From contig JASANE010012807.1 in assembly GCA_030248225.1 (NCBI GenBank), forward strand, positions 1-64,000: DNA of 64,000 nucleotides. The letters run 5' to 3'. Of the stretch, positions 1,655 to 31,091 are shown piece by piece. Each line of letters begins with the position of its first letter. The first letter of the stretch is position 1. The position numbers and the translations under genes are program-made. The DNA comes from Trileptium ribeirensis (taxonomy: Eukaryota; Nematoda; Enoplea; Enoplida; Thoracostomopsidae). The notes under the pieces are model-generated. The model saw nothing but the letters and a program-made list of their open reading frames with translations, searched no databases and was not told where the DNA came from.

Positions 1655-1801
1655 TCAGACTTTGAATCTTGAATTCCAGTGAGGTGTACAAGCAGCTTCA
1701 ATTTGTTGTCCGCTGACACTGTTAAACTCGACAAGCTGACAGCTTTCAATCTCATTTTGTTGTTGTGGTCTCCGGCTCCAGTTCAGATTACTGTTTTCCA
1801 T
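1655..1801 (-). CDS. Short Polinton ORF with promoter motif, probably truncated
   Basis: A 48-codon ORF starting MENSNLNWSRRPQQQNEIES. Its ATG lies two bases beyond the stop of the basic protein gene and 37 nt downstream of an exact copy of the ACATGAAAAG motif, which supports it as a real gene start. Right after its stop, another frame is open for about 40 codons (down to about 1480) and is Lys/Pro/Ser-rich, so the original gene was probably longer and has been frameshifted. No family recognised. Confidence 0.45.
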   Translation of the reverse strand: MENSNLNWSRRPQQQNEIESCQLVEFNSVSGQQIEAACTPHWNSRFKV

Positions 1802-1802
1802 A

Positions 1803-1982
1803 TTAGAAAATTTTCTTACATTTTAAATGTTTCAATTTCTTTTCATGTTTTTTAAACTTTCGTTTCACAACTTTTTTACGTTTTAACGTTTGTCGCTTAG
1901 GCTTAAAACTCTTTCGCTTAGGTTTCAGATTCTTGCGCTTGGGTTTTTGTCTCTGTCCCTGGAAAACTGGGTTGATATTCAC
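1803..1982 (-). pseudogene. Very basic Polinton protein, start codon apparently lost
   Basis: An open frame of 59 codons made largely of Lys and Arg, with repeated KPKRK/KPKRQ blocks (for example QKPKRKNLKPKRKSFKPKRQ). The composition is that of a DNA-condensing core protein, as in adenovirus-like capsids; that role is inference. No ATG is available at the N-terminus. A GTG at 1982 lies 39 nt downstream of a promoter-motif variant (CTTTTCATAT on the plus strand, 2022-2031), exactly where other genes have their ATG, so a single ATG-to-GTG change is likely. The stop is two bases from the next gene's start. Confidence 0.55.
1839..1848 (-). promoter_or_regulatory. Polinton promoter motif ACATGAAAAG (exact)
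   Basis: 37 nt upstream of the ATG at 1801, inside the end of the basic protein gene. Confidence 0.7.
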
Positions 1983-2021
1983 ACTAAAAAACGTTGTTTG
2001 AAATATTAACAGACTGAAATC

Positions 2022-2031
2022 CTTTTCATAT
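2022..2031 (-). promoter_or_regulatory. Polinton promoter motif, one-base variant ATATGAAAAG
   Basis: 39 nt upstream of the GTG at 1982 that replaces the basic protein's start, overlapping the stop of the 115-residue protein. Confidence 0.6.
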
Positions 2032-2373
2032 TTTTATAAACTTTAAATGTAAGTACAAAAATTTATCCGCAAGCGAGGAAAGTCTGTTTCCTGCGTTGTC
2101 AGTAGCCTCAAGCACTAAAATGTCTGAAGTAAATTTATTCTTCAATTTGGAGCAGGTGTCCACTTTTTGTCCAGTTAAAACACAAAGGGTTTCTGTAAAA
2201 CTACAATTTAAAATTTTAGGTTCAATAAAATTTGCCTTTATCATGTAAGGCATTTTATTTTTATCTATGGATCCAAATAACTTGTAACCCATCACAAGGA
2301 CGTAATCAGCTTCAATTGGTATAGGAAGCTGTACTGTTAAATCATTTAACTTTCTCACAACAATAATCTGCAT
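2026..2373 (-). CDS. Intact 115-residue Polinton protein of unknown function
   Basis: One of the few uninterrupted genes of the element. It starts MQIIVVRKLNDLTVQLPIPI and has alternating hydrophobic residues suggesting a beta-rich fold, with two short cysteine-containing stretches (NCSFTETLC and VDTCSKL). The ATG is 36 nt downstream of an exact ACATGAAAAG motif (2410-2419), and its last codons overlap the motif of the next gene. A small capsid or capsid-associated protein is possible from the position among late-type genes, but I cannot assign a family. Confidence 0.6.
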   Translation of the reverse strand: MQIIVVRKLNDLTVQLPIPIEADYVLVMGYKLFGSIDKNKMPYMIKANFIEPKILNCSFTETLCVLTGQKVDTCSKLKNKFTSDILVLEATDNAGNRLSSLADKFLYLHLKFIKI

Positions 2374-2409
2374 TTATATAAGCTGTTTATAAATAGCATT
2401 ATAGATAGC

Positions 2410-2419
2410 CTTTTCATGT
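2410..2419 (-). promoter_or_regulatory. Polinton promoter motif ACATGAAAAG (exact)
   Basis: 36 nt upstream of the ATG at 2373, 22 nt past the TBP-like stop. Confidence 0.75.
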
Positions 2420-2441
2420 AGTGCTGTTGTTTTTTTTATCT

Positions 2442-2952
2442 TTATTTAAAAAAAATTGAGGTTACCACCATATACAATATATACATATCATCAAGAGACT
2501 TTACACCTGTTATTACAATTTTCCCTGTTCTAAAGACGGACAATGTCCCACTCTTCAATAAAACTCAAACTTGGAAATAATTCCGGTAGGCATGTTATAG
2601 TGTAATCGCCTCTCAGCTTTTCATACAAAACATTTAAATCAATAGCAGCATAACATTTACACACACCAGTTACTGCACAAATTTCAAATTCATCAGTCCA
2701 GTATCCAAAGTTTTTCAAAATTTTCTTAAAATTCTTCGCATCCGAACGCAAGTCATCCATTGATTTGTATCCCAGAAACAATAGTTTGCCATTTGGCCAT
2801 ACCATCACACTTCCGCTTGACAACTTTAAAGTTCCAGCACGAAAACGTCGTGGGTTGTATCATAATCGCTGTAGAACACTGCTGAGTTGTAGCAAGTTAA
2901 TATTATTACTGGTTGTAGTCTTTACCACTAAGTTGGTTATTTTGAAGTCCAT
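2442..2952 (-). pseudogene. TATA-binding-protein-like factor encoded by the Polinton
   Basis: About 170 codons, the size of a bare TBP core. It starts MDFKITNLVV at 2952. Repeat 1 has the TBP hallmark YNPRRF, then NGKLLFLGYKSMDDL. Repeat 2 has LPELFPSL, then TGKIVITGVKSLDDM, and ends at a TAA at 2442. The two halves are visibly repeats of each other, as in TBP (family pattern YNPKRF, SGKMVxTGAKS, EPELFPGL, SGKxVLTGAK). Of the four phenylalanines that kink TATA DNA in TBP, three are kept (RRF, ELF, SVF); the second is Trp (VMVW). Two lesions: an in-frame TGA just before YNPRRF and a frameshift at about 2540 between ELFPSL and the last strand. The start overlaps the end of the NADAR gene by about 46 bp. 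No ACATGAAAAG motif lies upstream; a (TA)n run at 3029-3042 does. Confidence 0.85.
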
Positions 2953-3283
2953 AGCGAACTGACATCCAAAGGCGACCGTACCAGTTGTCTTTAGTCCAAA
3001 GACTGATATCGTTAACGTTTGCGTCTTCTATATATATATATAGTCCAATCCCGTTACCAAATTTACTTGCCTCTGCAATCACAGCAGTTTTTGTAGACAT
3101 CAACAGTTCGTAGGTGGGGTTATGTTGATTGGCTTTAGCCTCCATTGCTTTCAAGTTTGACGTCATACTTGACCTTGTCCCATTCTGGTTGGTCGACAAA
3201 TTTTAAATTTTCTCCAATATTTATTATCTTCTTGGGAGAGCGTTCCATCAATATTTCATATCTTGCTTCATAGCAGTTGAAGT
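2906..3283 (-). pseudogene. NADAR (YbiA-like) gene, C-terminal part, beyond the retrotransposon
   Basis: Continuation of the gene that starts at 6328. It picks up directly at the target-site duplication and carries the central and C-terminal NADAR features: PEWDKVKYDV, AVIAEAS, FGNGIGLY and WYGRLWMSVRYGL. Family members have W-D-xV-R/K, VLVEAS-like, WGIGL and NLLGxALMxVR at these places. A frameshift lies at about 3150. NADAR proteins act on ADP-ribose/NAD-derived compounds, and several remove ADP-ribose from nucleobases. In a virus-like element this could counter host ADP-ribosylation, which is inference. Confidence 0.72.
3029..3042. promoter_or_regulatory. (TA)n run upstream of the TBP-like gene
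   Basis: Seven TA dinucleotides about 77-90 nt upstream of the TBP-like ATG at 2952, inside the NADAR coding sequence (encoding alternating Ile and Tyr). It could be a host-type TATA element or plain low complexity. Confidence 0.25.
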
Positions 3284-3479
3284 TGTGATTTATTTTAAGA
3301 GAATTAAGAAAACTGAACACAATTTAATAAGTATTAAGCAACAAGAATTATCGAAGCCATGCTTCCGCCCAATACGCAGTCCAATATTGAGTTTTACAAC
3401 ATCATCAGTTTTTCAACCTAGCTATCGTTTTAACAGTCACGAGTTTTGCTTGAGTTTGCATACAGTCAAATTTACGACA
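3284..3479 (-). repeat. 3' LTR of the BEL/Pao element
   Basis: 196 bp, near-identical to 5981-6154, with one extra block of about 22 bp (around 3310-3335). Ends are TG..CA when read on the minus strand. Confidence 0.9.
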
Positions 3480-4646
3480 CTGCCGAGGGCAAAATGTGCC
3501 TTTAGACCTTAATGTGACCTTCAATTCACGCTTAATTTTGACCCGCTTCGGTGACATATTGTGCTTGACACGTGCTAAATCAGGCAATAGTTCTACCCAA
3601 GCATCCCACAATTGTCGAAATCCGTAATGATTCAAATGAAACACATCCGAATTAAATAACCGGCGGTTCAGTTGTGCATTTTCATAAAAACTAGGGCTGC
3701 CATGACGGGACCAATTAATACACTGAATTTTGGTTTTCTCCAGTCGTTCTTGAACCCATGTCGAATGGTCATAGATTTGCGGAACAGATGGATTAGGGAT
3801 CAGAGTATTCAATAGAATTTGTGGCCCAATGGGTTGACGCGACAAAAACTGCGCCAATGCTTCCCAGGAACGGATTCGCTTGCTAACCGATCGACGAGCG
3901 TTGTTGACCCCACATTGTATAATTATATATTTATAGTCTAACCAGCGAATCCGTTTCTCTGCAACAACTTCAACAATGTTATGATGCTCCCCACCGGAGA
4001 CAGAAAAGTGAGAGCCACCTTGAATGAATTCGACTTCAGCACATTGACTATCAGCAACAAGTAGCAGCGTACGACGGAATTGCGACTAGAATAGCGAGCT
4101 AGACATCAATCGAGAAGGGCTCCCAATAACGGGAGCGAATTTCTGATCATACCAACAAGAACGAATATGATCCAAACAGCGGCCATATAGGTTGTAGCCT
4201 TGCGGTCCGCCATCGTAGCCACTTTCGCGTTGAGACTCTCGAACGCCAGAACCCCATATTAAGTCGGTTGAACAAAGAACGAATTCAATATCAAGAGGAC
4301 GGCGCAATGCCTTTAGGAGTGATTCAAATGTCACTTTGAATGGACTATGAGGTTGGTGCATTTGATCCATCATGATGTCAATAACGATTTCATATGAGTA
4401 AAAAATACATTCAAGGTTAAACGTACCTTTGTTTCGTACCCACTGTGCGATTTCACCAGGATGATTTTCGAGGTGCTTATTCACCGCCAATCGGGAAGCA
4501 AGCACACTTTCTCCAGACTGGTTCAACATCACGTAATATCGAATAGCGTCGATTGATTTGAAAGAGCGACTACCGAAGTAGAGCGACCTTGGGTGAACAT
4601 AGAACCGATTGAGAGGATGCTGAGGGAGGATCGCGAATTGGCGCAT
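3405..4646 (-). pseudogene. SGNH-hydrolase-like ORF in the env position of the BEL/Pao element
   Basis: A single frame of about 413 codons, open except for one TAG at 4086-4088, running from MRQFAILPQ at 4646 into the 3' LTR. The N-terminal 186 residues are not recognised. The part after the TAG shows the blocks of the SGNH/GDSL hydrolase superfamily: LLLVADSQ (block I, Ser in place), IIIQCGVNNA (block III GxND-like), a LLNTLIPNP strand and DVFHLNHYGF (block V, the Asp-x-x-His pair). It starts 15 nt after the DUF5641 stop, where env genes lie in some BEL/Pao elements. An esterase attached to a retroelement glycoprotein or particle is conceivable. No clear signal peptide or membrane segment is visible. 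Confidence 0.6.
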
Positions 4647-4660
4647 GATTTCTGAAAAAA

Positions 4661-5080
4661 TTACTTGATAGACTGAATTGATTTAATAATAATTACTTGT
4701 GGCTTCTTATTATTATTTTGTGTAAAGCTTATTATTAGTTTGTGTAAATTAGCATAATGTCCTACATTAGCATAATGGGTGTTGATGGTGGAATACCCAC
4801 CAGAATCATAGTCCCTGCTAATGATCTTGTCAATAACTTTTGCCATCTTCCATGATGATCTGGGCATATTGTCCTTCACGAGGACAATACTACCGACGAC
4901 AACAGGTGAAGAGACAATGTTTCTCTGTTTAAAAGACGTATCATGGTGCCGTAATCTTTGCAAATATCCTTGTCGCCAAACATTCCAGAATTCGTTGAGC
5001 TGGCGCTGAGTTCGTTTCCATTGTAAAATTAATTCCGAGGGCTTGATATCCAGGGGTTTAGTTATACATTGGGAATTCAA
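4661..5080 (-). pseudogene. BEL/Pao integrase C-terminal domain (DUF5641-like)
   Basis: The reading frame contains the conserved C-terminal segment of BEL/Pao polyproteins: W-KRTQRQLNEFWNVWRQGYL followed by GSIVLVKDNMPRSSWKMAKV, matching the family pattern of FWxRWxxEYLxxL and G-x-V-V-L-I-K-D-x-x-x-P-R-x-x-W-x-L-G-x-V. Only this end of pol is present. The upstream boundary at about 5080 joins it to gag sequence in another frame, marking a large internal deletion. Confidence 0.85.
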
Positions 5081-5508
5081 GATTGCCAGAGGTTGTTGAG
5101 GTCCCCACTATATTTTTCGATGTGAAGTTTCGGTAATTTTGTGGAGGTTGTAGTACTCCCACCCACTTCATTTCTCTGAGTGACTGCCCCGGAAGGCGAT
5201 GAAACAACGTTACTGATAAAACTGTCAATTTTAACACAAGTTACACATCGTAACTCTAATATAGCTTCATCAACTTCCATTGATTTATTTATATCACTAT
5301 CGATCTCCATATCATCTGAATACAGTGAAAGAATTTCATCGTTGAGCGCCGAAAGACGGGCGCGACAGTCATCTAATTTAGTTACAATACTTTTAAGTTC
5401 ATTACAGTCAGCTTGCGTTTGTGGATGTTTAGATGTCTTAGGTTTATTTAGCTCCTTATTAGGGTTAAGCCGTATAGCATTGCGTTGGCGTACTTTAGTA
5501 GACAGCAT
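5077..5508 (-). pseudogene. BEL/Pao gag N-terminal fragment
   Basis: 143 residues starting MLSTKVRQRNAI. After a charged coil (residues about 25-75) comes TKLPKLHIEKYSGDLNNLWQ, the typical LPKxxLPKFxGDxxxWxxF signature of BEL/Pao and related gag (DUF1759) proteins. The frame stops just where the deletion to the pol C-terminus occurs (about 5078-5085). Confidence 0.8.
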
Positions 5509-5966
5509 TTTTGAGCCGAACTTAGCAACTTAATCCAGTGCTACAGAAATTGGTTTGACAAAGGAACCATACTCAGGCTCGAAACACAATAGCTATGGTT
5601 AAGTAAAGAGATAATTCATCCACATTAAATATTGCAACTGGAATTGAAATTATCGGCAATTTGATTCGAGAATCAGCAAATATGGCTCAATCCACCCACT
5701 ATGGCCGCCACGATATCCAGACGTTGTGCGAAGTCGCGGTCGAATTGATCGCCACACGGACGTTAGATAAGCAGAAGTATGGCAACAGGCTGCTTGACAA
5801 CCAAATTTTTGGAATAAGGACTCAAATTTTAGAGTCGAACTCCTGCAAAATTGAGCAATGAAGCAGTTAAGATTTGCGCAGAATTTGACTCTAAGTCAGA
5901 GTCGAACGGCAATTGCACATAGGGACTCAATGGCTGAGTCGAAAAACAAGTACTTCAGGCAAAGTC

Positions 5967-5980
5967 GGTTCGAAGGACCA
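5967..5980 (-). other. Primer-binding site of the BEL/Pao element
   Basis: Directly adjacent to the 5' LTR. On the minus strand it reads TGGTCCTTCGAACC, complementary to a tRNA 3' end (GGTTCGAAGGACCA with the T-loop GGTTCGA and CCA). The leader 5509-5966 has no ORF of note. Confidence 0.8.
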
Positions 5981-6154
5981 TGTGATTTATTCTAAGAGAA
6001 TTAAGAAAACAAACTGCAACAAGAATTATCGAAGCCATGCTTCCGCCCAATACGCAGTCCAATATTGAGTTTTACATCATCAGTTTTTCAACCTAGCTAT
6101 CGTTTTAACAGTCACGAGTTTTGCTTGAATTTGCATACGGTCAAATTTACGACA
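5981..6154 (-). repeat. 5' LTR of the BEL/Pao element
   Basis: 174 bp, near-identical to 3284-3479. The outer end is followed by the target duplication GAAGT (6155-6159). Confidence 0.9.
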
Positions 6155-6340
6155 GAAGTAATTCGCCTTTTCAGATTCATAATATTGCTGAATACTACCA
6201 TACGTCATATCATATACTTTGAAGTCAGCGACATGTACGCTCCTCAACGGACAATAGCCTGTAGCAAATAGCGCCAAGGCTCGACCGTCTTTCGATTCAC
6301 AAATCTTAAACGTAGTTGATGTTGACATTTTGTTCAACAT
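6155..6340 (-). pseudogene. NADAR (YbiA-like) gene, N-terminal part
   Basis: The start is at 6340 or more likely 6328 (MSTSTTFKICES), 35 nt downstream of an exact promoter motif (6364-6373). The frame contains the NADAR helix pattern YGSIQQYYESEKANYF, comparable to the family's YxSVEQYxQAxKAxxF. It is cut by the BEL/Pao insertion at 6154 and resumes at 3283. It overlaps the end of the preceding gene (stop at 6334). Together with the distal part the ancestral protein was about 190 residues, a normal size for a stand-alone NADAR protein. Confidence 0.72.
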
Positions 6341-6740
6341 AAACGTTTCCAGTCGATACTTTTCTTTTCATGTATTTCCTTGCCTCTCCCTAGAGCTCCA
6401 TTCGGTACCCTCTGCATATACTCTGTTCGAAGTTGGTCAATGTCTATTGGACGGGGAGCTGAAATTTTTCCAAATTTACCAAATACTTTACCATATCGTA
6501 AAGTGTTGATCCCACAGTTCCGTCATTATACTCAACACGATTGTTTGCATCTTGCTTTACGGTTTTCAAATGACTGGAAAGGAGTTTGACCTAAGACTGT
6601 AGGCGCTTGGAAAATAGACTTGAAATATGTTCTTTTGGCTTGTCCTCAAGTGTATCTACACTTACTTTCACTGGTTCTCCATTAGTTTGAGTTTGTTTCT
6701 CTAACCAGCTGGGAGACACTAGCAGATATCGCTTGGCCAT
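6334..6740 (-). pseudogene. Polinton small structural-type protein, frameshifted
   Basis: Starts MAKRYLLVSPSWLEKQ at 6740, 42 nt downstream of an exact promoter motif (6783-6792). After a stop at 6591 the reading continues in other frames with NRVEYNDGTVGSTLYDMVKY and later RPIDIDQLRTEYM, ending at 6334. Short proteins with an MxKxYLLVxP start and a G-x-x-I/L-x-D-x-V motif near the end occur next to the packaging ATPase in many animal Polintons and adintoviruses; that comparison is from memory of the family. At least two frameshifts are needed. Confidence 0.6.
6364..6373 (-). promoter_or_regulatory. Polinton promoter motif ACATGAAAAG (exact)
   Basis: 35 nt upstream of the NADAR ATG at 6328 (23 nt from the alternative ATG at 6340). 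Confidence 0.75.
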
Positions 6741-7021
6741 ACTGCAATTGATTTTTTTAAAAGATCGATTGTAACATGTTGCCTTTTCATGTTATCAGAC
6801 AACTTCAAGGACGATAGTTTGTAAATTGTCGAACGTTGTTTGCGTAGCAGCTTAATCTGCTGCTCAGTAAGAGGAATGTTGCCATATAAAATATTATAAC
6901 AAATTTCACTCAAAGACTTGATTACAAATACGGGGGCGGATTTCATAAAACTGTTAACACATTTCTTGTCAGTTTTCACTAAGGCACAGGCCATACATAT
7001 TGTTGCTGAATGACGTTCCAT
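6719..7021 (-). CDS. Polinton small protein with NIPLT signature
   Basis: 100 residues from MERHSATICMACALVKTDKK. It contains NILYGNIPLTEQQIKLLRKQ followed by STIYKLSSLKLS, the recurring signature of a small basic protein found beside the ATPase in animal Polintons (N-x-L-x-G-N-I/V-P-L-T-x-x-Q-x-x-x-L, then a K/R-rich helix). The ATG at 7021 is preferred to an upstream ATG at 7102 because an exact promoter motif ends 27 nt upstream of it. The motif for the next gene lies inside this coding region. The frame is intact. Confidence 0.75.
   Translation of the reverse strand: MERHSATICMACALVKTDKKCVNSFMKSAPVFVIKSLSEICYNILYGNIPLTEQQIKLLRKQRSTIYKLSSLKLSDNMKRQHVTIDLLKKSIAVWPSDIC
6783..6792 (-). promoter_or_regulatory. 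Polinton promoter motif ACATGAAAAG (exact; the flanking order reads AACATGAAAAGG)
   Basis: 42 nt upstream of the ATG at 6740, within the coding region of the NIPLT protein. Confidence 0.7.
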
Positions 7022-7048
7022 ATCTTTTATATAATCACGATAACGTGT

Positions 7049-7058
7049 CTTTTCATGT
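7049..7058 (-). promoter_or_regulatory. Polinton promoter motif ACATGAAAAG (exact)
   Basis: 27 nt upstream of the ATG at 7021. The ATPase stop codon TGA (7053-7055) is inside the motif. Confidence 0.75.
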
Positions 7059-7668
7059 AGGTTTGTGTACTGCAGTTTGATCAAAAATATTTTCCCTAAC
7101 ACGTAAATCCTCAGGTGTATTAGGTTTCAGATCGATCATCAGATAGTTGTAAGGTTTGTCATTGGTTGCCATTTCAAAGGCTGTAGATAAAAAGTTGGGT
7201 TTATGAGGCCACATTTGTCTTCCTAGTGTTGCAATTTGATTTCGAACGAGGATTTGGAAATAGAAATAAGTACTGAGCGTTTCTGGAAATTTCTGTCATG
7301 TACTTTCCACAATGATAAAAGTTTTGTACTATAAATATAGTACTAATATTTGCATGTCGCATTTGGGTAAACATGTTTGCTAATGTTTTGTCATTTGAGT
7401 ACTCCATTAAATCATCAAGAATGTAGAGTGTTTGTCCTTCATTCCTTCCAACAAAGGTCGGGAATCCTTCTTCAAACGTTAAATTATCCATTTCCTCTGA
7501 CAATTGATGATACATAGGTTGCATCATTCCATAACACCAAACAACCTTTTCAAATTGCTTATCAAATAGATTTTTACGCAACAGTTGAGCCACAAGATGA
7601 GTTTTCCCTACTCCTGTTGCACCCGACACAATGGAGGTAAACGGTATTTCTAACGGTATTGACTCCAT
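7053..7668 (-). pseudogene. FtsK/HerA-like genome-packaging ATPase
   Basis: Walker A GATGVGKT at 7600-7623 and Walker B LYILDDL at about 7408-7428, then a sensor-like FIVQNFYHCGKY. The typical Polinton ATPase C-terminus (LGRQMWPHKPNFL, YNYLMIDLKPNTPEDLRVR) follows in another frame after a frameshift at about 7235. The start MESIPLEIPFTSIVSG at 7668 is chosen over an ATG at 7692 because it is 27 nt from an exact promoter motif (7696-7705), whereas 7692 abuts the motif. The TGA stop at 7053 lies within the next gene's motif. Length is about 205 codons, as usual for Polintons. Confidence 0.88.
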
Positions 7669-7688
7669 TTTTAAAATTGATAAGTAGG

Positions 7689-8742
7689 TCATACCCTTTT
7701 CATGTCTTGTTCACCCACCCAGCTGTTGAATTTTTCAGGATATTCCAGCCATTTTACTAAATATTGACGAGTACTATCTTTCATTCTACGTTTTCGCAAT
7801 ATTTTCTTAATCTTAAATATATCTCCTACACGTACCTTTTGAAGTTCCTGCTCGTACCATGTTCCCAAGATATCTTCATTTCCGTAATCGCTAATTTTAT
7901 AACGAAGAGGATCTGAAGGTATATGTTCGTCTTGTAATATAAAATACTTCTTGAGACCATTGCGGTTTGTATCCCTTGTCGAAGATAAACTGGGCGCTTG
8001 CAACCCTTACAGCATCATTAAGCTTAAACATGTATGAAAGCACTCTGTGTCCTTGAGGAAGGTACAAAATGTTTAAAATATCAGATTCATTTTCAACAGT
8101 TACATCTACTGGACGGAAACCAAAGCGATTCTTTGTGTGATTGTAGTTATCAACAATGTCTCGTAAAATGTCGATATAGCAATACGTATTATGTTTGGTA
8201 AGGTATCAATATATTTTGGATTTCAAAGTACGGATGCACCTTTCCGCAACTGCAGCCTTGGTTTCAACATTCTGAGCAGTGTAACAAATTATTCGTACTT
8301 TTGACAGAGATTATTGAAGGTGATATTTGTAAATTCAGCGCCACTATTCGAGAAAATATGATTTGGACGGTTAATGCGAAACATGGTTTCCAAGGCTTCC
8401 CATACTAATTTTGAGTTTTTAGACTTTAAGGGGGCAACTCTGACAAATTTAGACAACACATCTATAACCACTAGTAGATATTTGTTGTCATCATTATACC
8501 TAGACAATCGTGTCATATCTGCAAGATCAACTTTCCATAAATCATTGAGACCCTTTGTTATTGTTTTTACCCTTCCAAACCTCTTCCGTTTGGGTTTATG
8601 AAGTGTATATGTATCCTGACCTTGTAGCCAATCTTTAACTTGCTGTTTGGAAATACCATATTTTTGGCATGTTGCCAAAGTTTGTTTATCCTTAAAACGC
8701 GGCAGGGCTTTTAAAGCTGTAATATAAATCTTCCAGCTTCAT
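7689..8742 (-). pseudogene. Polinton DDE integrase with C-terminal chromodomain
   Basis: Start MKLEDLYYSFKSPA at 8742. After a frameshift comes a helix-turn-helix-like GISKQQVKDWL, then QDTYTLHKPKRKRF. The catalytic core has WKVDLADM (first Asp), FSNSGAEFTN (second Asp changed to Asn) and KAAVAERCIRTLKS (Glu kept, in a shifted frame at about 8220). A C-terminal chromodomain (ILRKRRMKDSTRQYLVKWLE, then FNSWV) is at about 7695-7830. Several frameshifts and the lost Asp make it inactive. A one-base variant of the promoter motif (CTTTTTATGT, 8769-8778) lies 26 nt upstream, and its last codons overlap the ATPase motif. Confidence 0.88.
7696..7705 (-). promoter_or_regulatory. Polinton promoter motif ACATGAAAAG (exact)
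   Basis: 27 nt upstream of the ATPase ATG at 7668, within the last codons of the integrase. Confidence 0.75.
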
Positions 8743-8764
8743 ACTTAATATAGACAAAATGCAG

Positions 8765-9411
8765 TTATCTTTTTATGTTTATTGGGTAACTGGTTACAAT
8801 CTTATCTTTACAAATATCATATACAATCCTAACTGTATGTGTTAACATACTACAGGGCATTACCACACCAACAATATCATCAAATTGTTTCACCATTATA
8901 TGTTCATTGTTTCCAATATACTTTATATAATCAAATTCAGTAAAACATTTTTCAATCATCAAGTGTCTCGATTCTTCTGTCACAACAAACCAAGACGTAC
9001 TGCTATTTTCATACTCCAAATGTTTCGTTTGCGCGTGATAAGAATAGCTCAGCATTTCTAATGTTTACTCTAAACAGTTGTTTTTCAAAGACCCGTTGCA
9101 AATTGAAGGTTGACAATTTCGCGATGAAGGAGTATTCCAAGTTGCAATTTGTTAAATAAAATCCCTTGTAAGTATCGTCAGTTTGAATCAACACGAGGAG
9201 ATTCTTATACGGTATCACGAATCTTCGAAATAGATGTTCAGATACATCAAATAGATAGACGACCTTTTCACTCCACAGTTTGATGGAACGTGGAGGATGA
9301 AGTATTATCTCAAATTGTAGATTATCACTTGCTCGGTTTACCCAATGAATGTTGTAACCACGAGCTGGAAACCAAGATTCAATGCGACGCTTTGTTTAAT
9401 CTTCGAAACAT
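8765..9411 (-). pseudogene. Polinton gene of unknown function
   Basis: Probable start MFRRLNKA at 9411, 38 nt downstream of an exact promoter motif (9450-9459). A frameshift at about 9385 is followed by a frame open to about 9055 (GYNIHWVNRASDNLQFEIIL, YKNLLVLIQTDDTYKGFYLT), and another shift leads to a frame that ends at 8765 (HIMVKQFDDIVGVVMP). About 210 codons in total, rich in aromatic and beta-forming residues. Not recognised. The adenovirus-type protease signature is not visible. Confidence 0.5.
8769..8778 (-). promoter_or_regulatory. Polinton promoter motif, one-base variant ACATAAAAAG
   Basis: 26 nt upstream of the integrase ATG at 8742, within the last codons of the preceding gene. 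Confidence 0.6.
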
Positions 9412-9616
9412 AGCGGTTCGTTGAGTGATATTCCTTCAACACAAGGCTTCTTTTCATGTTTGTTAATCGGAAAACCATATCTATTGCAATCGTTGTAAGC
9501 AAAGTAACGATTATTGGTATGACCATTTTCAAGTTGATTCTTTTGCCACAAAAATTTTGCTTCCTTTGATATATTTCCGGTTCAAATTCAGAAAACGAAA
9601 CCGATTTGTTAGCCAT
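9338..9616 (-). CDS. Small Polinton membrane protein
   Basis: 92 residues starting MANKSVSFSEFEPEIYQRKQ. One strongly hydrophobic segment, NLKMVIPIIVTLLTTIAIDM (about residues 28-47), suggests a single membrane span with a charged N-terminal tail. The ATG is 29 nt downstream of an exact promoter motif (9646-9655). The last third overlaps the motif and start of the next gene, so the true C-terminus may be shorter than the open frame. Family unknown. Confidence 0.5.
   Translation of the reverse strand: MANKSVSFSEFEPEIYQRKQNFCGKRINLKMVIPIIVTLLTTIAIDMVFRLTNMKRSLVLKEYHSTNRYVSKIKQSVALNLGFQLVVTTFIG
9450..9459 (-). promoter_or_regulatory. Polinton promoter motif ACATGAAAAG (exact)
   Basis: 38 nt upstream of the ATG at 9411, within the coding frame of the small membrane protein. 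Confidence 0.7.
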
Positions 9617-9645
9617 ATTAACTTGTAAAATATAGAATGTGCATC

Positions 9646-9655
9646 CTTTTCATGT
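9646..9655 (-). promoter_or_regulatory. Polinton promoter motif ACATGAAAAG (exact)
   Basis: 29 nt upstream of the membrane-protein ATG at 9616, just after the polymerase stop. Confidence 0.75.
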
Positions 9656-9674: not shown

Positions 9675-11198
9675 ATTTTATTATAAATACAACAAAATAA
9701 ATACATAAATATAAAGTATAAATATAAATCAGAACAATCCATAATATCACAATGTCCGTATGGAATAGAAGTTACCCCATGTAGTAAAATATACCTCTTA
9801 TCGTCATAAGCGCTCAAATTAATCTTATTCTGCTCAACCGTATACAATTCATGTTTATTGTTTGAAATCTGTTTCTTGTGGTATTTCTGAGAGTCTGTAT
9901 ATAATCATCCATATGTATAGCTCTCTTTAGGGTTTGTTTTTTAACACCCTTTGCTCTCTTTTTTTCAACACCTCCACATTTTAACGAGTACATTTTTGGT
10001 TTCAATCCGCAAAACTCCTCAATAGGAATCCCAGCAGTTTCATCTTTCATTTTACCCAAAACCTTTTTGTTTTCGGTAGAGTATAGGAAGTGGTCGGCTG
10101 AATAATCACTAGTGTCAAAGTATTCTATATCCTCCTTCATGTCACCGTAGACATCCTCCGCATATATATCATAGCAGAGGCTGTCAGTATCGGTAAACAG
10201 CAGATGACAATCATATCTGCTCTTGATATATTTGTAGTGGAATTCGTACATTAACATTTTGAAAAGCTCAGGAACTGTAAACCCTACGTAAATTGGTTTG
10301 CATAAACAAACACTTGGTTTCTTCATTGAAACCGCCACTAAATTTTCATCAAAGATTGTACTAATACTGTAACGAGGATTCGATACCAACTTTTGAAACT
10401 TTTTCGGACAATTTATAAGTTTAATGTCCTTACAAATCCGTACATTTTCCAAAGACTGCGTTATTTAGCAGTTTAAAATAAATCCTTTTCAAAATCACTC
10501 TTTGCCCCTTGGCGTTTTTCGGTATTAAACAAAATATAGGGTTTCATCCAATCTCGCTCGTTAAACTGAATTGCCCTATAAATTTTAGTTACCTTGAGAC
10601 CCAATTCGGTGTACAGTTTCAAATTTCTTGCATGTATGATATATTTAACCTTACTGTTAAGGTTAGGAACAAGTTTTCTGATTGGGGTATATTTCATTCT
10701 AAAATCCTGTTTTACTTGGAGGCAATATGGAGACAACATTGAGTCTTCAATTTTTGTAGATTCGGGAGCAAGAGGGTAATCACTGTGTAACGTGTGTAAA
10801 TAATCTGGGTATTCTAGATCAACTTCAAGAACATAATCAATATCCCCATCCTTTTCCAATTTATTTTTGACAAATGATTTTCTTCTATCCACTTGAATCC
10901 ATCTACAGGTAACTTCTGAACCATAGTCCATCCATATAAATTATTAGCATCCAAGTACATTATATAGTTTGACTTCTTACTTGGGTCATAATTTTCAAGA
11001 TACTTGTTGTTGGCTTTGGCATAACGGTGTGAAATCATTGAAATACCTCCTCGTATGCCATGTTCAAAAAACATGTACATGTTGGAGTCTTTCGACAATT
11101 GTAACCGAACACCGTCAAACTTTAAACAAGCATCCCATCCAATTACGGGGTAGCGTTATATAATGTACTGGGTCCAACTTATAATTATATCAATAGCT
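9675..11198 (-). pseudogene. Protein-primed DNA polymerase B, N-terminally truncated and frameshifted
   Basis: Polinton PolB palm and C-terminal regions: YKLDPVHYITLP (about 11140-11180), GIRGGISMISHRYAKAN, motif A LDANNLYGWTM (about 10950), motif B KLLNNAVFGK (10446-10475), motif C LLFTDTDSL (about 10185) and the conserved C-terminal segment AYDDKRYIL (about 9800). At least four frameshifts lie between these blocks (near 11140, 10880, 10460 and 9850). The exonuclease and N-terminal half are missing because the sequence breaks at about 11198. Both catalytic Asp motifs (A and C) remain. No promoter can be seen because the start is lost. Confidence 0.92.
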
Positions 11199-11720
11199 AA
11201 GTCAAAATATAAGCTGAGCGCGAAGAAAACGAACAAAAACCGGGCCATCAAGGCAACCGGGCAGAAATCGATTCAAGAATGCTTCCGGCGGGAGCGCCAA
11301 TAGGACATTGACGACGAAAAGGCCAAAATAATCCATATCAAAATTGCTGAAATGATGGTACTGACTGTCAGCCGATTTCAATTATTGAAGTTGTTGTTTT
11401 TAAACTTTTACTAAACTGCCTGGAACCCCGTTGTGTAATTCCAACTCGAAAATTTTTCAGCGAAACTATTATTCCAGAAATTTATGAAATAGTGAGACTA
11501 GAAGTTGGCTCATTGCTTGAGGGTGCCAATTGAATATGTTTCTCGTGTGACATTTGGACATCGAACGTTAATAATGACGCATTTATCAGACTACCGGCGC
11601 ACTTAGTCACCGTTAATTTCGAAAAACTCAAGCTCATCATCAATACACGTCATTTTCCAAGTGGACATACTGGCTCGAAAATTGCCGACACCATAACACT
11701 AATGTTGGACCACAGATGAA
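11199..11720 (+). pseudogene. hAT transposase fragment, plus orientation
   Basis: Degenerate copy of the same transposase as the one on the minus strand at about 13850-13320, lying in the opposite orientation. Recognisable pieces are KYKLSAKKTNKNRAIK at about 11205, IIHIKIAEMM at 11330, CDIWTSNVNNDAF at 11545 and HVIFQVDILARKLP at 11650. Many frameshifts and stops. It abuts the truncated Polinton polymerase at 11198 without a visible element end, so the junction is a rearrangement breakpoint. The stretch 11721-12200 holds no recognised coding sequence. Confidence 0.7.
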
Positions 11721-12203
11721 GCAAAAATGTAGAAAGTGAACAGCATTATATTATATTACCGTCCTATTCCTTAGTTCGTATTCTGCCGTTATCTCAACTT
11801 TGTTCTGTCAAATACAGCATTCATGCTTTCTTTTGGCGTCTGAAACAAAGCAGCAGCTGAGGCGGAACGTTTGGTGTGCTTAGGAGAAGGGATATGCGAG
11901 AATTCACTGAGTTCAAAAAAGATTTGCATAGTATTAAGAAGAAACAGGATGTTCGTTGACGTTGCCCCGAAAATATCGCGATTAGTCGTCTATCTTCAAT
12001 AGTTAGAGTCTGCAAACGCTGCTTTGCCATTTGAATCCGTTAGCGGCAGTATATTTGTAGCGTCCATAGTACCACTCATCCACTCAACACCGGATTTTCA
12101 TCTTTCGACTTCGGACATGGAATAATAGCTCCAGAGGCAAAGGTCGCTAATCTTTTCCCCAACAAATCGCGGGACTGTAGCCAAAAAGTTTTCAGTATTA
12201 GTT

Positions 12204-14208
12204 GTGGTATTCAAAATTCAGAAGCAAGACGTTCTCATGCAAGAACGATTACTTTACATTTTCTGGGTTGAGCCGGTTGAGATTCAAGGTGAGAACATTG
12301 ACCGCGATCCTGAATTGTCGTTCACTTGCGAACTAGTAACAGGAGCAGAGAGGGCACGTCGCTCTAATTGGCTTAGTCGTGGAAATTGCGCTGAATGTAC
12401 TCTCCACCATTCAGAAGGATCACAATTTTTATCTGCTCGAGGAACTGCGATATAACTGTCGAGTTCAGTAGAAGCGTTAGTCAACGCAGTTGTAAATAAT
12501 GCCCCAGGTTTCTGCGATTTTATCAACACTGGCCATTCTCGCTACCTTTGCAGGAGACCTTTCCATTTCTTGCGCCGGACTTGGGTCTGGACTATTGCTA
12601 AGCATACTCAGCAGTGCTATTTTACGCTCAAGTTCAGCTGCCTCTTCAAAAACGCTGCTTTATAGCCAGGACTCAAGTCAGGTAGCACTTCCAGCCTCGA
12701 ATTTAGCATTTTCTAAATATGACAACTAAACCGTGCATTTATCACATTTATTAGCGTTAAAGCTTCATTATGTACCAACTCCTGAATCCGGTAAATTACG
12801 CAGATACTGAATAAACCGCAACTTTGAAGACCAACCATTGATAACGTTGCGTTATTTGTTCATAGTTTTTTTGCTAATTTCTTCACATGGTTGCAACACA
12901 GCAATAATATTTTCCAGAACTTCCAACTGGTTCGCAGACTGTAATTCGATGCCACTATCAGCTGAATGCAACGCCAAGGTCCGTTTGTGTTCCAAAAGAC
13001 TGACAAGCATATGCAAAGTGGAGTTCCAACGCGTCGGAACATCTTGCACCAATTTTTTCTTCGGCAATTCTAACTGTTGCTGAATTTTCGCCAAATTATC
13101 ACATGCTTTTGAGGAATGGTTGAAATGACCCACTATTCGTCTTTCAATAGATATGATATCGGAAACAACTCTCTGGAATTTTATTGCTTCGTTTATGCAT
13201 AACTGTAGGCAATGAGCGGCAGACGGCACTTGACTGATTTCTAAATCGCGCAACGCTTTCAGTATATTGGAACCGCTGTCTGTGACAAAACAGAAGTAAT
13301 CGAAATTATCCCACTGGTCCAACATTAGTGTTACGCTGTCCGCAATTTTCTAGCGAGAATGCCCACCTGGAAAATGACGTGTATTAAGGACGAGATTGAG
13401 TTTTCGAAATTAACGGTAACGAAGTGCGCTGTTAGACTTATAAATGCGTCATTAATGTTCGATGTCCAAATGTCGCACGTGAAACTTATTCCATTGGCAC
13501 CCTCAGGCAATGAGTGAACCTTAAGCTTCACTAGTTCATAAATTTGTGGAATAACAGTTTCTCTGAAAAATTTTCGACTTGTAATTACATTACGGGGTGA
13601 CAGGCAGTTTAGTAAACGTTTAAAGCCAACATCTTCAATAATTGAAATCGGCTGACAGTCAGTTGTCATCATTTCAGCAATTTTGGTATGGATTATTTTG
13701 GCCTTTTCGCTGCTGATGTCCCATTGGCGGTCCGCCCGAAACATTCTTGAATCGATTTCTGCCCAGTTCCTTGCATTGATGGCCCATGTTTTTGTTTGCT
13801 TTGTTCGCGCTCAGCTTGTATTTTTTGGACAAAGCTTCATATACAGAAAATTGCGGAATGTGTTGTTGCAAATGATTTTTCAAGCCGCTTGTTCCGAAAT
13901 CTTTGAATGTTTTACCAGCGCGAGAAATAATCTTTGCTGCATGTGTTACACTTGCATGGGTAGCCGTCGCGTTAGCAACGGAAAAAATGCCATATAGTCG
14001 ACAAACTCGTTACTTACCAGAGTTTCTATACTACTTGCTATTTCGATATAAATATATACTATTTTCTTTCTATTTCTCTACTACAATTTGGCTGAAAAAA
14101 ATTTGCCAGTGTAATTCACTAGAACAAATTTTGATTCTCCCGTATCCGGTCGGATGGTGGAGGCCGAATATCCGGTACTACCGGCCATTTTGGCTATCCG
14201 GTACAACC
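12204..14208 (-). pseudogene. hAT-family transposase (ZBED type)
   Basis: In order on the minus strand: a BED-finger region at about 13980-13850 (CNTCSK in one frame, LKNHLQQHIP in the next), then IIHTKIAEMMTTDCQPISII, SFTCDIWTSNINDAF and HFVTVNF (RNase H-like core), FCFVTDSGSN, AAHCLQLCINEA, VQDVPTRWNSTLHML at about 13030, and the C-terminal dimerisation signature CDPSEWWRVHSAQFPRL at about 12390. Frameshifts separate these blocks. The outer end near 14208 has subterminal TACCGG/TATCCGG repeats and ends in ...TACAACCCTA, a hAT-like terminus. The opposite terminus was not found. Confidence 0.85.
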
Positions 14209-27242: not shown

Positions 27243-28440
27243 GTAAGCGGATTGTGTTTTTCTATCAACTAGAACAAATAATATCCGTCTCGCAGCGTTT
27301 CATATTAATGTAGTGACCCTAAGGGGTCACTAGAAAATTTCTAACTCATATACACGCATATCGTAGGCTAAACGATCAATTATTTGGTCACCAAACCTAA
27401 AATATGCATGTATACTATACTGAAAAAACTGAAAAAAACCAGCGCCACAGAGGTATGTTGGGACACCTGAAAGAAAAAATGTATTAATTTTTATAAAATT
27501 ACTGACGCCTTAAGGGGTCATGACCCCTAGTTTCCGAAATGACCCCTTGCTACTGACCCCTTAGGGGTCAGTAAATTTTTCCGTTTACTGACCCCTACCT
27601 GGGAGGGCTTAAAATAACCCCGGATTAAGTTATTCTGAAAAATTGTGTTTTAGCCTAAGTACATAGAGGAAAATTACTTCAGCTTCACCAAACCAGCGTA
27701 TAGAAAAAATTAATTTTGTAGAAGGTTTGTTAGCTAGGTTAGTGACCAAATCGATACAGTTAAGATTCAGTATGGATGTACATAGAGCCGTTATGTCGTG
27801 CCAGTTTGTATGTTAGTGTTGATGTTTTTAAATTTAATACTAGTTTCTTTATTGTATTTGAAAATTAATTATCCAGTCCAATTATACATTTTTGCCCAGT
27901 TAATTTTTTGACGTCCATATTTGTATACTGCCTGGTTGTTAAAAAATCTGTGCACGCTTTTAGTAATTATTAAGCAAATGTGTTATCTTATGTGCATTAA
28001 TATACGCTGTTATATCATTATAACTTATTGGTTCATATTTCAGTAAGAAACAGGTTCAACTAGATCACATTTAAGATGTTGCAGTAAACCATTACCATAT
28101 TGGAGTATTTATACTATTTTAGATCTGGAGAAATTTCTGTATCTACCATACATATGTATGGGTAAAAATTTGTTTCAAACCCGTAAGGTCAAAGCAAATC
28201 ATGTTGGATTTAAATTTACAAATTAATCTGTTGTATACTCAAAATATCGCACTGTATATATGTGAAAACGAGGTTGTAACATCTCTGTTTACTTTTGCAG
28301 AGTTATGATCAGCGTATAATTGTCGTGATGAACGTATTGGGAGCATTATAGATATTGTGTTGCGACGAATGTATCTGAATACATACTATCTATGATATCT
28401 TTTATATTAATATTGATAAATAATTTGTTTTTTATTTCAG
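27243..28440 (+). other. TULP4: TULP4 intron with a palindromic repeat cluster
   Basis: Starts GTAAGC and ends TTTATTTCAG. The segment 27312-27594 carries several copies of TGACCCCTTAGGGGTCA in both orientations (for example TAGTGACCCTAAGGGGTCA at its left end), probably a small fold-back element. The rest shows nothing recognisable. Confidence 0.55.
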
Positions 28441-31018
28441 CTGGCGGATACGATGTTGTCGCATTACAAGCTGAGCAGCAGTTAATGTCACAAGTTATCA
28501 ACGAGTTTGACGACTTAAAGATTGCAGTCGAACGTCATATAGAACGAATGCGGCAGTTTGCGGCCAATCTTCAGCAGTCCAGTGAGCCTGTTATTGTGCA
28601 GCAAGATGTATGTAGTGGAATTGATAACGCTCGAAACATTGAAGGATTGGGAGCAACGCCCCAGTTCTGTGTTTCGCTAGACCATCATAAAGGAACTAAA
28701 GCTGCGGAAAGGACAAATCTCGTGGACAGTAGTATTCCTGCGTTTGGCAATAGCGGTAAAGCTTTAAAACATTCAATGTCAACCATATCGGAAATTGGTG
28801 GACCGGTTGTAGCATTGGGTCGAGACAAGCACTTGTCTATGGTTCACAGTACAGGTGTTCATCGGTGCTCAACAGGTGACGAATTGCTTTTGGGTACCTG
28901 TGCAAAGTACAGCAAGGCGACCTCACGCGGTACCGCATTAGTTAGCTCGCCCATACACCAGCGTAGTTTGGCGACAGAAAGCGTATGCGCCTCGGCAGAT
29001 TCGCTTAAAACTAGCATAGCACCATTGAAACCTTTTGTGTCTTTGCTTACTGGAGGTATTGATGATGATTTTATGGTACAAAATCCGTTGCTCGAAAATC
29101 AGAGACAACACGATGCGCTAACTGATGATGAACTCTCTGCAAGCTGTGGTGACTTAGTGCCTGATAAAGCAACAACGTTGTCAGCGGGATTGGTAAAGGG
29201 CGATTTAGCTGGAGCTGCATGGCCTTCTGCATCTGCTGCGGTTCGATCTCCATCTGCTATTTTGCCGATGTCGTCTTCACATACTTCGTTTGATCGGCTA
29301 TCGCCGGGAGGTGAAGCAATTTGCTTATCTGATAGTGAATCGACAAAAAGAGCTCGTTTTATTGGACTAAAAGGTAGTAATTGCACCCAGAATCAAAGCC
29401 TGAAGGATCGTCGCAGAACTACCACTGACTACCTAACCTGTCAGAAGGAAGAGCCGAAACGTAACGCTGAGGGATCTCAACTGCTCCTGCCGTATCAGTA
29501 TAACTCAGGGTTAGCCCAAGAATTCGACGGCGGGGAAATATCGAGCAGTGCTGATGAGTTGTCGATGACGGCTCCAAAGAAATCTGCCTTGGGACGAGCC
29601 GCTATCGATACTGCTCCTGTGTCACATAGCAAAACCTCAGCTGTTAAGCACTTATCCGCCGGTAAACAGCACAGCAGTGGTCATACGTGTGCGAGCAAAT
29701 TCCTTGCAATATCATCGTCATGTATAGGGAGGAGCCAGGCGGCTTCTGAATCACCTTCTGACGACAACGGTTCGAACGTTGGTGTTAAAATTACCGGCGG
29801 TAATCGTAAGGCATTGAGGTCGGACGTTATTAGTCGGTCATTTCGGCGTAAACACGCTAGCATAACGCCTCCTGTTGGTAGCAAGAAATCTAATAAGAAA
29901 AACGTGGATCAGAGCTGTGGTAGTCCAGTTGTGACAGCCGTACGGAGCCCGAGTTATCGAAAAGCAACTGCCGGATTGTCAGCAGTTGACCGTAAAACCT
30001 CTAAAACATCCAGGACTGGAAACGCCGAGAAGAGTAACGTGGGAAACGTGTATTCACACTCCTCATTAAAAATAAATAGCGAGGATCAGCCAAGTTTGGA
30101 CACTCAGATGGCGCCGCGAGCTTCAGATGAAATGGTATACTGTTCTCCAATATATAGCATAGGTGCGACCGGACATACCGTTGGAATGTCTCCATTGGAA
30201 CAGTCAAAAGGCACAAACAGCTCGGAATCGGCCATGCTTCGTACAGTTGGCAAATCGGTAAATTTGCGTGCCAGTAGCAACCGATTTGAATCTGGTAGCG
30301 GACATTTGCAGTCAAAAAGCTGGAGTGCAGCAATAGAGGCGTTTTCGTTCATTGACGACGATGATATAGCGTTGCAAGTGCCTAGCGCAGATCTGCCAAC
30401 TACTGCACGCATTGTAAATGGCAAATTACAACATGTTGCAGGTTCTTGCCAGCCAGAACATTTGAAAAGATACACTAACAATACAGAACAGTGCCCTGAT
30501 AAAGGTTCTTTAACGGTGGATCCAAAATTAACAGGCAACAGCACATTGGTCGGTACAAGTCAAAGAAAGTGCAATGAGAGGAAGGAAGTTCGACAGTGGT
30601 GGCCACGCCGGTTTGGTAATATCAAAAACGAAGGCATAGATTCTGATACAGCTGGTCTAGAAACACTTGAACACGGTGCGTATTCTGACACCGAAGTACA
30701 TCGCGTCGTAACGAATCGTAGATCCGTAAATGACGCTGACCCAATTCCTGTATTTAATAGAAATAGTGCAGAACAGCCATCGTATATCAAACCGGGAAAC
30801 GTTCCAAACACGTTGGCGGAGTCGTCTGTAATGGGATTCACCCATGTCAATAAGCACAGTACATATAAGTACGACAGAGGCACATGTTGCCCTCAGCATC
30901 AGAATGCTCTACAATATTCACAACCACCATCGTCAAACTATCATTTTTGCAATTCGTCTTCGACTCCAGTTCGCACTAGAAATAAACAGCTCAAGGATAT
31001 TGCATCGGTGTTAGACAA
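28441..31018 (+). CDS. TULP4: TULP4 large central exon
   Basis: Acceptor TTTTTATTTCAG. 2578 nt encoding about 859 residues of the region between the tubby-domain halves. It begins with a helical, probably coiled-coil segment (LQAEQQLMSQVINEFDDLKI, about residues 5-45), then becomes long Ser/Thr/Lys-rich low-complexity sequence with basic clusters (SFRRKHASITPP, GSKKSNKKNVD). The donor is AA|GTAAAC at 31019. Phase 2 is completed by the G of the next exon to give AAG (Lys). If not spliced, the codon AAG is followed at once by a TAA stop. The exon start is in phase with either donor of the preceding exon. Confidence 0.85.
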
Positions 31019-31091
31019 GTAAACACTTTTTGATGTATGTGTTTTAATTTATTAAATATGCATGCGCTGTTCTGCGATTTCCTAAATACAT

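Follow-up and report, generated by a model that had tools for sequence, protein, structure and literature searches.

A Polinton lineage with its own TATA-binding protein and TATA-like boxes, which may form an element-specific system of transcription start

The window analysed here, a stretch of 64,000 nucleotides, contains on its minus strand (2952-2445) a gene resembling that of the TATA-binding protein (TBP), which reading of its open reading frames (ORFs) places in three pieces, beginning with an ATG at 2952-2950. The N-terminal piece (2863..2952) runs from this ATG to an in-frame stop and resembles by eye the N-terminus of an intact relative (L040:1115-1630); taken alone (49 aa) it gave no Pfam match. 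The central open piece of 109 aa (2533..2859) covers most of repeat 1 and the first half of repeat 2. It matches PF00352 with an E-value of 9.4e-9 and 35.4 bits (cut-off 22.9), aligns over residues 1-100 and across both repeats with solved TBPs (best E 5.1e-7) and is 93% identical to the L040 protein over 107 columns. The C-terminal piece (2445..2564) lies in another frame and contains TGKIVITGVKS, and its 40 aa alone match PF00352 with E 1.8e-5 and 24.9 bits (cut-off 22.9). Because the pieces match both PF00352 and solved TBPs, the likeness to TBP is not a matter of chance. The two TBP-type repeats that an earlier note had read from the sequence alone are thus borne out by the profile matches and by the alignment across both, in a copy that is itself a broken gene, with one in-frame stop and one frame change in place of a single ORF. 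A search of 5.8 billion proteins with the 109-aa piece returned no match; a profile of intact relatives did find matches, so the empty search reflects a limit of the query.

The gene sits in a decayed Polinton. Pieces of an ATPase, of a chromodomain integrase and of a polymerase-like gene share its strand, as do all features of the remnant given below. The start of the TBP gene at 2952 overlaps the preceding ORF, which ends at 2906, just as the earlier note had it. This preceding gene encodes a NADAR domain and is split by an insert of ~2.7 kb (about 3310-6000). Its C-terminal part (2906..3323, two frames), whose end overlaps the TBP start, gave NADAR matches of E 1e-4 and 0.029, both under the family cut-off; the intact relative (L040:622-1158) matches NADAR with E 1e-22. 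The N-terminal part (6083..6367, ATG at 6328) was recognised by its likeness by eye to the N-terminus in L040 and L028 and gave no Pfam match when searched alone. The insert is flanked by direct repeats, together ~180 nt, and shows weak GDSL-lipase and NADAR matches as well as a DUF5641 match.

Beyond the TBP gene follow a small ORF of the MEII/MEVV family (2026..2373; counterpart L040:1693-2037; no Pfam match), a Lys/Arg-rich frame from the ORF listing that is open and has no ATG in the window copy (1803..2033), and a remnant of the start of an MCP-like gene (1658..1801, MENSNLNW...; counterpart L040:2259-2651). A Lys/Arg-rich ORF occupies the corresponding position in clade A (L009:605-919), one of the two clades of these elements; the window itself belongs to clade B. 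On the other side of the NADAR gene lie the MAKR/MARK ORF in pieces (6334..6791; counterpart L040:206-616), the MERH ORF (6719..7126; counterpart L028:2942-3280), an A32-type packaging ATPase in pieces (7053..7710; PF04665 E 2.1e-8), an integrase with chromodomain in pieces (7689..8738), the MANK ORF in pieces (9009..9649; counterpart L043:2234-2851) and DNA polymerase B-like pieces (9814..11155). The integrase falls short of the rve cut-off of 32.6 bits (30.0 bits, E 6.5e-7) and matches Chromo with E 4.6e-9; the integrase of an intact relative (L043:918-1967) lies above both cut-offs. The polymerase B-like pieces were named from their motifs and gave no polymerase match in Pfam or PHROGs. At the edge of the remnant (11204-13824) there are inverted copies, 85-92% complementary, of a stretch that resembles a hAT transposase. 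On the plus strand, at 28332-31022, an 896-aa open frame is perhaps part of a host gene.

Related copies were collected from the genome of the window (687 Mb) by a TBP-domain search in which the best 150 of 975 candidates were scored. Two of these 150 matches (L002 and L011) are exons that belong to the TBP gene of the host itself. The 38 element loci chosen by TBP match (L003-L041 without L011) comprise 18 taken from among the best matches and 20 more selected so that contigs and frame lengths varied. Beside TBP they carry NADAR (36/38), the MEVV ORF (35/38), the MCP-like ORF (35/38) and MARK (32/38), a neighbourhood held by extracts mostly 3.2-3.5 kb long. A set independent of TBP came from a genome query with the clade A ATPase protein (best 150 of 1,187 candidates scored), from which we took the first 20 usable matches on contigs outside the TBP list, leaving out C18772 as too close to the end of a contig. 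Nineteen of these 20 loci gave a TBP match, and 19 a NADAR match; several of the copies are near-identical, so they do not amount to 20 independent cases. Across the matched region the TBP frame was open in 14 loci and broken in five; one locus had no TBP match. Twelve of the open frames extend across most of the gene and two are partial matches (L075, L079); the TBP of L079 appears frame-shifted, and the single stop of L080 was taken as the natural end. In many Polinton copies the homologues occupy the same slot as ORFs without introns; they are hence not captured exons of the host TBP, and the gene belongs to the element, as had been proposed.

Polintons are recognised by a chromodomain integrase, an A32-type ATPase, inverted ends and a 6-bp duplication, and by their integrase, ATPase, inverted ends and 6-bp duplication the TBP-carrying elements are true Polintons. 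Intact integrases match rve with E 2e-12 (L043) and 2.2e-10 (L042) and contain a chromodomain in each case, and intact ATPases match PF04665 above the cut-off (E 2.3e-8 and 1.8e-6). A genome search with PF04665 gave seven weak matches among 150 scored. One element copy (C5982:92200-106754) measures 14,555 bp, has inverted ends of 122-124 nt with 94% identity and shows the same six bases at both flanks, a 6-bp target duplication seen in the one copy examined. Long ORFs in the expected place carry motifs resembling those of Polinton polymerases; these polymerase-like ORFs gave no polymerase match in Pfam, PHROGs or PDB. The capsid-like ORFs (426-435 aa) gave one sub-threshold Capsid_N match (E 0.017) and no match to PDB sequences. 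By eye, a Cys/His stretch at the start of the clade A ATPase (L042:205-963) looks zinc-finger-like.

The intact TBPs of these elements have 171-197 aa, little beyond the TBP core. The profile match seen with the window pieces recurs in them, in two stretches each, at 98.1 (L040), 102.8 (L027), 109.7 (L009) and 104.2 bits (L035), and the structure model of an intact relative is a TBP, with its saddle fold; among solved structures, the 44 best matches are 23-28% identical to it. Cellular TBP kinks DNA with four Phe, and aromatic residues are usual at these positions, though not required for membership of the Pfam family. We compared 20 element rows (14 of clade A, 6 of clade B) in yeast TBP numbering and found Phe at position 99 in 20/20, Phe (14/20) or Trp (6/20) at 116, His (12/20), Phe (6/20) or Tyr (2/20) at 190, and Phe (17/20) or Tyr (3/20) at 207. 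All four kinking positions are aromatic in 6/6 rows of clade B, and clade A has His at 190 in 12/14. The window's clade (L040, L028) reads F99, W116, F190 and F207, which confirms the three Phe and one Trp that had been picked out in the window. In clade B, N159 is replaced by Ser. The majority of DNA-contacting positions are conserved; the basic residues of the N-lobe, which we take to be contacts of host regulators, are largely changed. Of the two residues that we assume to contact TFIIB, E188 is conserved in 20/20 rows and E186 in 16/20, with E186 lost in L040, L028 and L038, the subclade of the window. With dN/dS below 0.5 in 28/28 pairs, these data show that a Polinton lineage encodes a two-repeat TBP under purifying selection.

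Some copies have longer open TBP frames of 251-339 aa, in which the addition is an N-terminal extension only, and in L031 and L032 the long frames continue into the next ORF. The TBP frame is open upstream over much of NADAR in L022, L025, L033, L041, L076-L078, L082-L084, L086 and L087. It might be that in many clade A copies such upstream-open frames represent an N-terminal extension overprinted on NADAR.

In a TBP tree of 41 rows the piece from the window groups with L040 (100/91), and the intron-bearing host TBP (L002/L011) stands apart from the element TBPs and groups with cellular TBPs. Two proteins from ENA contigs, P0009 and P0010, fall inside the window's clade (100/100), with P0009 next to L027 (99/95), and may derive from a host related to this one. 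One contig probably carries both P0009 and the ATPase P0001, because the ENA contig of each is 10,495 bp long. With weak support (64/96) for the branch that unites P0011-P0013 with clades A and B, the tree does not establish a single origin of the element TBPs; P0011-P0013 are TBPs of 176-184 aa, weakly grouped with those of the elements. A further TBP-like protein of 175 aa (P0025), labelled as Dinothrombium tinctorium, lies on a contig of 15,125 bp, near Polinton size, and its position in the tree is unsure. A structure search in BFVD matched the element TBP to viral proteins, the best being A0A5P9U4S6 (189 aa). In IMG/VR, L001, which lies on a phage-like contig, was rejected as a relative because its match is due to chance, the single distant match to the TBP profile A2 (L060) fell outside the element groups in the tree, and ATPase and polymerase queries found no match. 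Queries of prokaryote genomes with TBP and ATPase were also empty. Taken together, the results support the window gene as a TBP-family gene of a Polinton.

Candidate TBP sites, listed together, are CTTAAAAG, CATGAAAAG and TATATAAAG. Exact copies of CATGAAAAG occur eight times in the window, all on the minus strand within 1839..9654 (5' bases at 9654, 9458, 7704, 7057, 6791, 6372, 2418 and 1847), and nowhere else in the 64 kb on either strand. Seven of the eight begin 36-51 nt upstream of the start codon of a recognised gene; the box at 9458 has an ATG 47 nt away and no recognised gene. Several boxes also have a closer ATG that starts no recognised gene. With one mismatch allowed, the window holds 17 boxes against a chance mean of 9.1, and 2 of 100 shuffles were as high, so that this count is close to chance. 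For the comparison between copies, 184 upstream regions of 110 nt were reduced to a non-redundant set of 115. In clade B, CATGAAAAG was present in 14/27 upstream regions, in 0/27 on the reverse strand and in 0/27 coding stretches; these 27 rows include four clade A MERH rows (4/6 of the B_MERH group), and the upstream count is 14/23 when they are left out. ACATGAA was found in 13/18 clade B rows when MERH, TBP and POL were set aside. The clade B NADAR gene has the variant box as well (2/2).

Clade A uses another box. Upstream of its ATPase, INT, MCP and MEVV genes, CTTAAAA was the commonest 7-mer when no pattern was preset, occurring in 44/49 upstream regions, in 1/49 on the reverse strand and in 0/49 of the first 110 coding nucleotides, and 39 of the 44 boxes lie 31-44 nt upstream of the ATG. 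In the 20 later loci, which were not deduplicated and are partly close kin of the first set, CTTAAAA stands at MEVV in 17/17 and at NADAR in 1/17. The clade A NADAR gene has CTTAAAA in 2/16 and TATATAA[AG], a pattern chosen after inspection of the data, in 10/16, at 41-106 nt from the ATG. TATATAA[AG] was found at none of the other clade A genes (0/71), and the later loci gave 6/17 at NADAR and 0/50 at other genes. A looser TATA pattern over all clade A genes is not clearly enriched (18/88 upstream regions; shuffles with a mean of 10.4 and a highest value of 18). The 110 nt upstream of TBP itself hold neither box, in 0/8 of the first set and 0/11 of the later loci, and the TBP start falls at or within the end of NADAR. 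In L005 and its kin CCTTAAAAGG lies directly upstream of a TBP start, which is outside the start used for these counts. CTTAAAA was rejected as a MARK promoter and left out of the counts for that gene, since it lies ~100 nt from MARK. Overall, these counts show that TATA-like boxes specific to the elements precede their genes, with a spacing to the start codon that varies little and is usually 31-51 nt.

On the strength of these sequence patterns, we consider it probable, at roughly 65%, that the element TBP serves as an element-specific general initiation factor and provides a minimal early-to-late switch through the variant boxes. After entry or activation of the element, host TBP would use a canonical TATA box to initiate transcription of the NADAR-TBP unit, a step which accounts for clade A only, since NADAR of clade B, the window's own clade, has the variant box. 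The element TBP would next bind the variant boxes, CTTAAAA in clade A and CATGAAAAG in clade B, bend the DNA and recruit host TFIIB and RNA polymerase II, and the integrase, ATPase, capsid-like and other genes would then be expressed. Whether there is a full two-stage programme, host TBP first and element TBP second, and with a TBP and a box that diverge in step from lineage to lineage, we regard as close to an even question, leaning slightly to the doubtful side; with only two clades, the idea that TBP and box change jointly has a single comparison behind it. Several observations speak against the switch. The boxes are TATA-like enough that host TBP might use them, TATATAA[AG] is absent from NADAR in 6/16 cases and loosely spaced where present (41-106 nt), and E186 is lost in the window's subclade. 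A section heading on the KSHV protein ORF24 (PMC12529657) calls ORF24 incompatible with direct TFIIB binding, which would count against the TFIIB step.

The TATA likeness of the boxes would also suit an element TBP that acts mainly on the host, competing with host TBP or tying up initiation factors, with the boxes being read by host factors. The changed basic residues of the N-lobe, which host regulators contact, could let such a protein escape control. We think this unlikely, however, as the boxes differ between the clades just as the TBPs do, the clade A boxes differ from the TATATAA[AG] kept at NADAR, and the majority of DNA-contacting positions are conserved. Somewhat less probable still is that the boxes are not promoters and represent another signal near the start, connected with the end of the preceding gene or with translation, the TBP having a separate role such as bending of the ends or packaging. 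Their location in short gaps or within the final part of the ORF before them would agree with this; the narrow spacing to the ATG, the strand bias, the TATA likeness and the presence of a different TATA-like box at one gene would not.

Since the structure model aligns equally well to the TBP of Pol II and of Pol III complexes, the element TBP could in principle partner RNA polymerase III or another host polymerase in place of RNA polymerase II. We give this little credence, because the genes are long protein-coding ORFs and Pol III transcripts of this kind would presumably be unusual. That a host TBP exon or pseudogene was captured by chance in one copy and has no function might be suggested by the broken state of the window copy; it is extremely improbable in view of the many copies in the same slot, the two divergent clades, the purifying selection, the relatives in ENA contigs and the position of host TBP elsewhere in the tree. 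An initiation factor specific to the element hence appears to us the best reading of the TBP and its boxes.

TBP is a near-universal and slowly evolving protein, and few DNA signals are as well known as the TATA box. The transposon described here, ~14.6 kb long, encodes a TBP itself and exists in many copies in one genome, and the box differs between its two TBP clades. What is new is that the genes of the element carry TATA-like boxes of two kinds, the variant boxes and, often at the clade A NADAR gene, TATATAA[AG]. The patterns in these sequences suggest that a Polinton may have its own system of transcription start inside the host nucleus. In such elements one could test the long-standing question of how a TBP can coevolve with its promoter box while the host is left undisturbed. 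Polintons would gain a possible temporal gene programme, as needed for virus-like behaviour, and the alternative TBPs used by herpesviruses, mirusviruses and giant viruses would have a counterpart in a small virus-like element.

With animal Polintons/Mavericks and adintoviruses the elements share the integrase with chromodomain, the A32-type ATPase, the inverted ends and the 6-bp duplication. Within the open-access literature, which was covered in part, we came across no description of either a TBP or a NADAR gene from these groups; this search supports but does not prove that a TBP in an animal Polinton is new. The host was taken to be an animal on account of its transposons and its TBP. From cellular TBPs and TBP-related factors the element TBP differs in being encoded by a mobile element, in its identity of 23-28% to solved matches and in the residues that replace F190 (His or Tyr, clade A), F116 (Trp, clade B) and N159 (Ser, clade B). 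Virus-encoded TBPs are also known from NCLDV and mirusviruses, and BFVD gave structure matches to the element TBP. TBP is present in 59% of mirusvirus genomes (PMC10132985), an algal virus with TBP and TFIIB is proposed to redirect the host polymerase (PMC12085832), and viruses that encode a TBP-like protein almost always had a TFIIB-like one too (PMC7221094). These genomes are far larger than the measured Polinton copy of 14,555 bp, and we found no TFIIB domain in the element ORFs scanned by Pfam. The mirusvirus-like elements of Cymbomonas (CHeCMEs) likewise belong to a host genome, as mobile or viral elements, and carry TBP sporadically (PMC10675990). The nearest working precedent for the proposed role of the element TBP is the TBP mimic of beta- and gamma-herpesviruses at TATT boxes. 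KSHV ORF24 acts at TATT late promoters, with the box ~30 nt before the start, and uses host RNA polymerase II (PMC6541308); it works within a six-member complex and has a further DNA-contacting C-terminal domain (PMC6541308, PMC12529657). The element TBP differs in being a stand-alone two-repeat TBP without this C-terminal domain and in its box, CTTAAAA or CATGAAAAG; the two systems have in common a TBP-like factor, a modified TATA box and, if the proposed role holds, the use of host RNA polymerase II.
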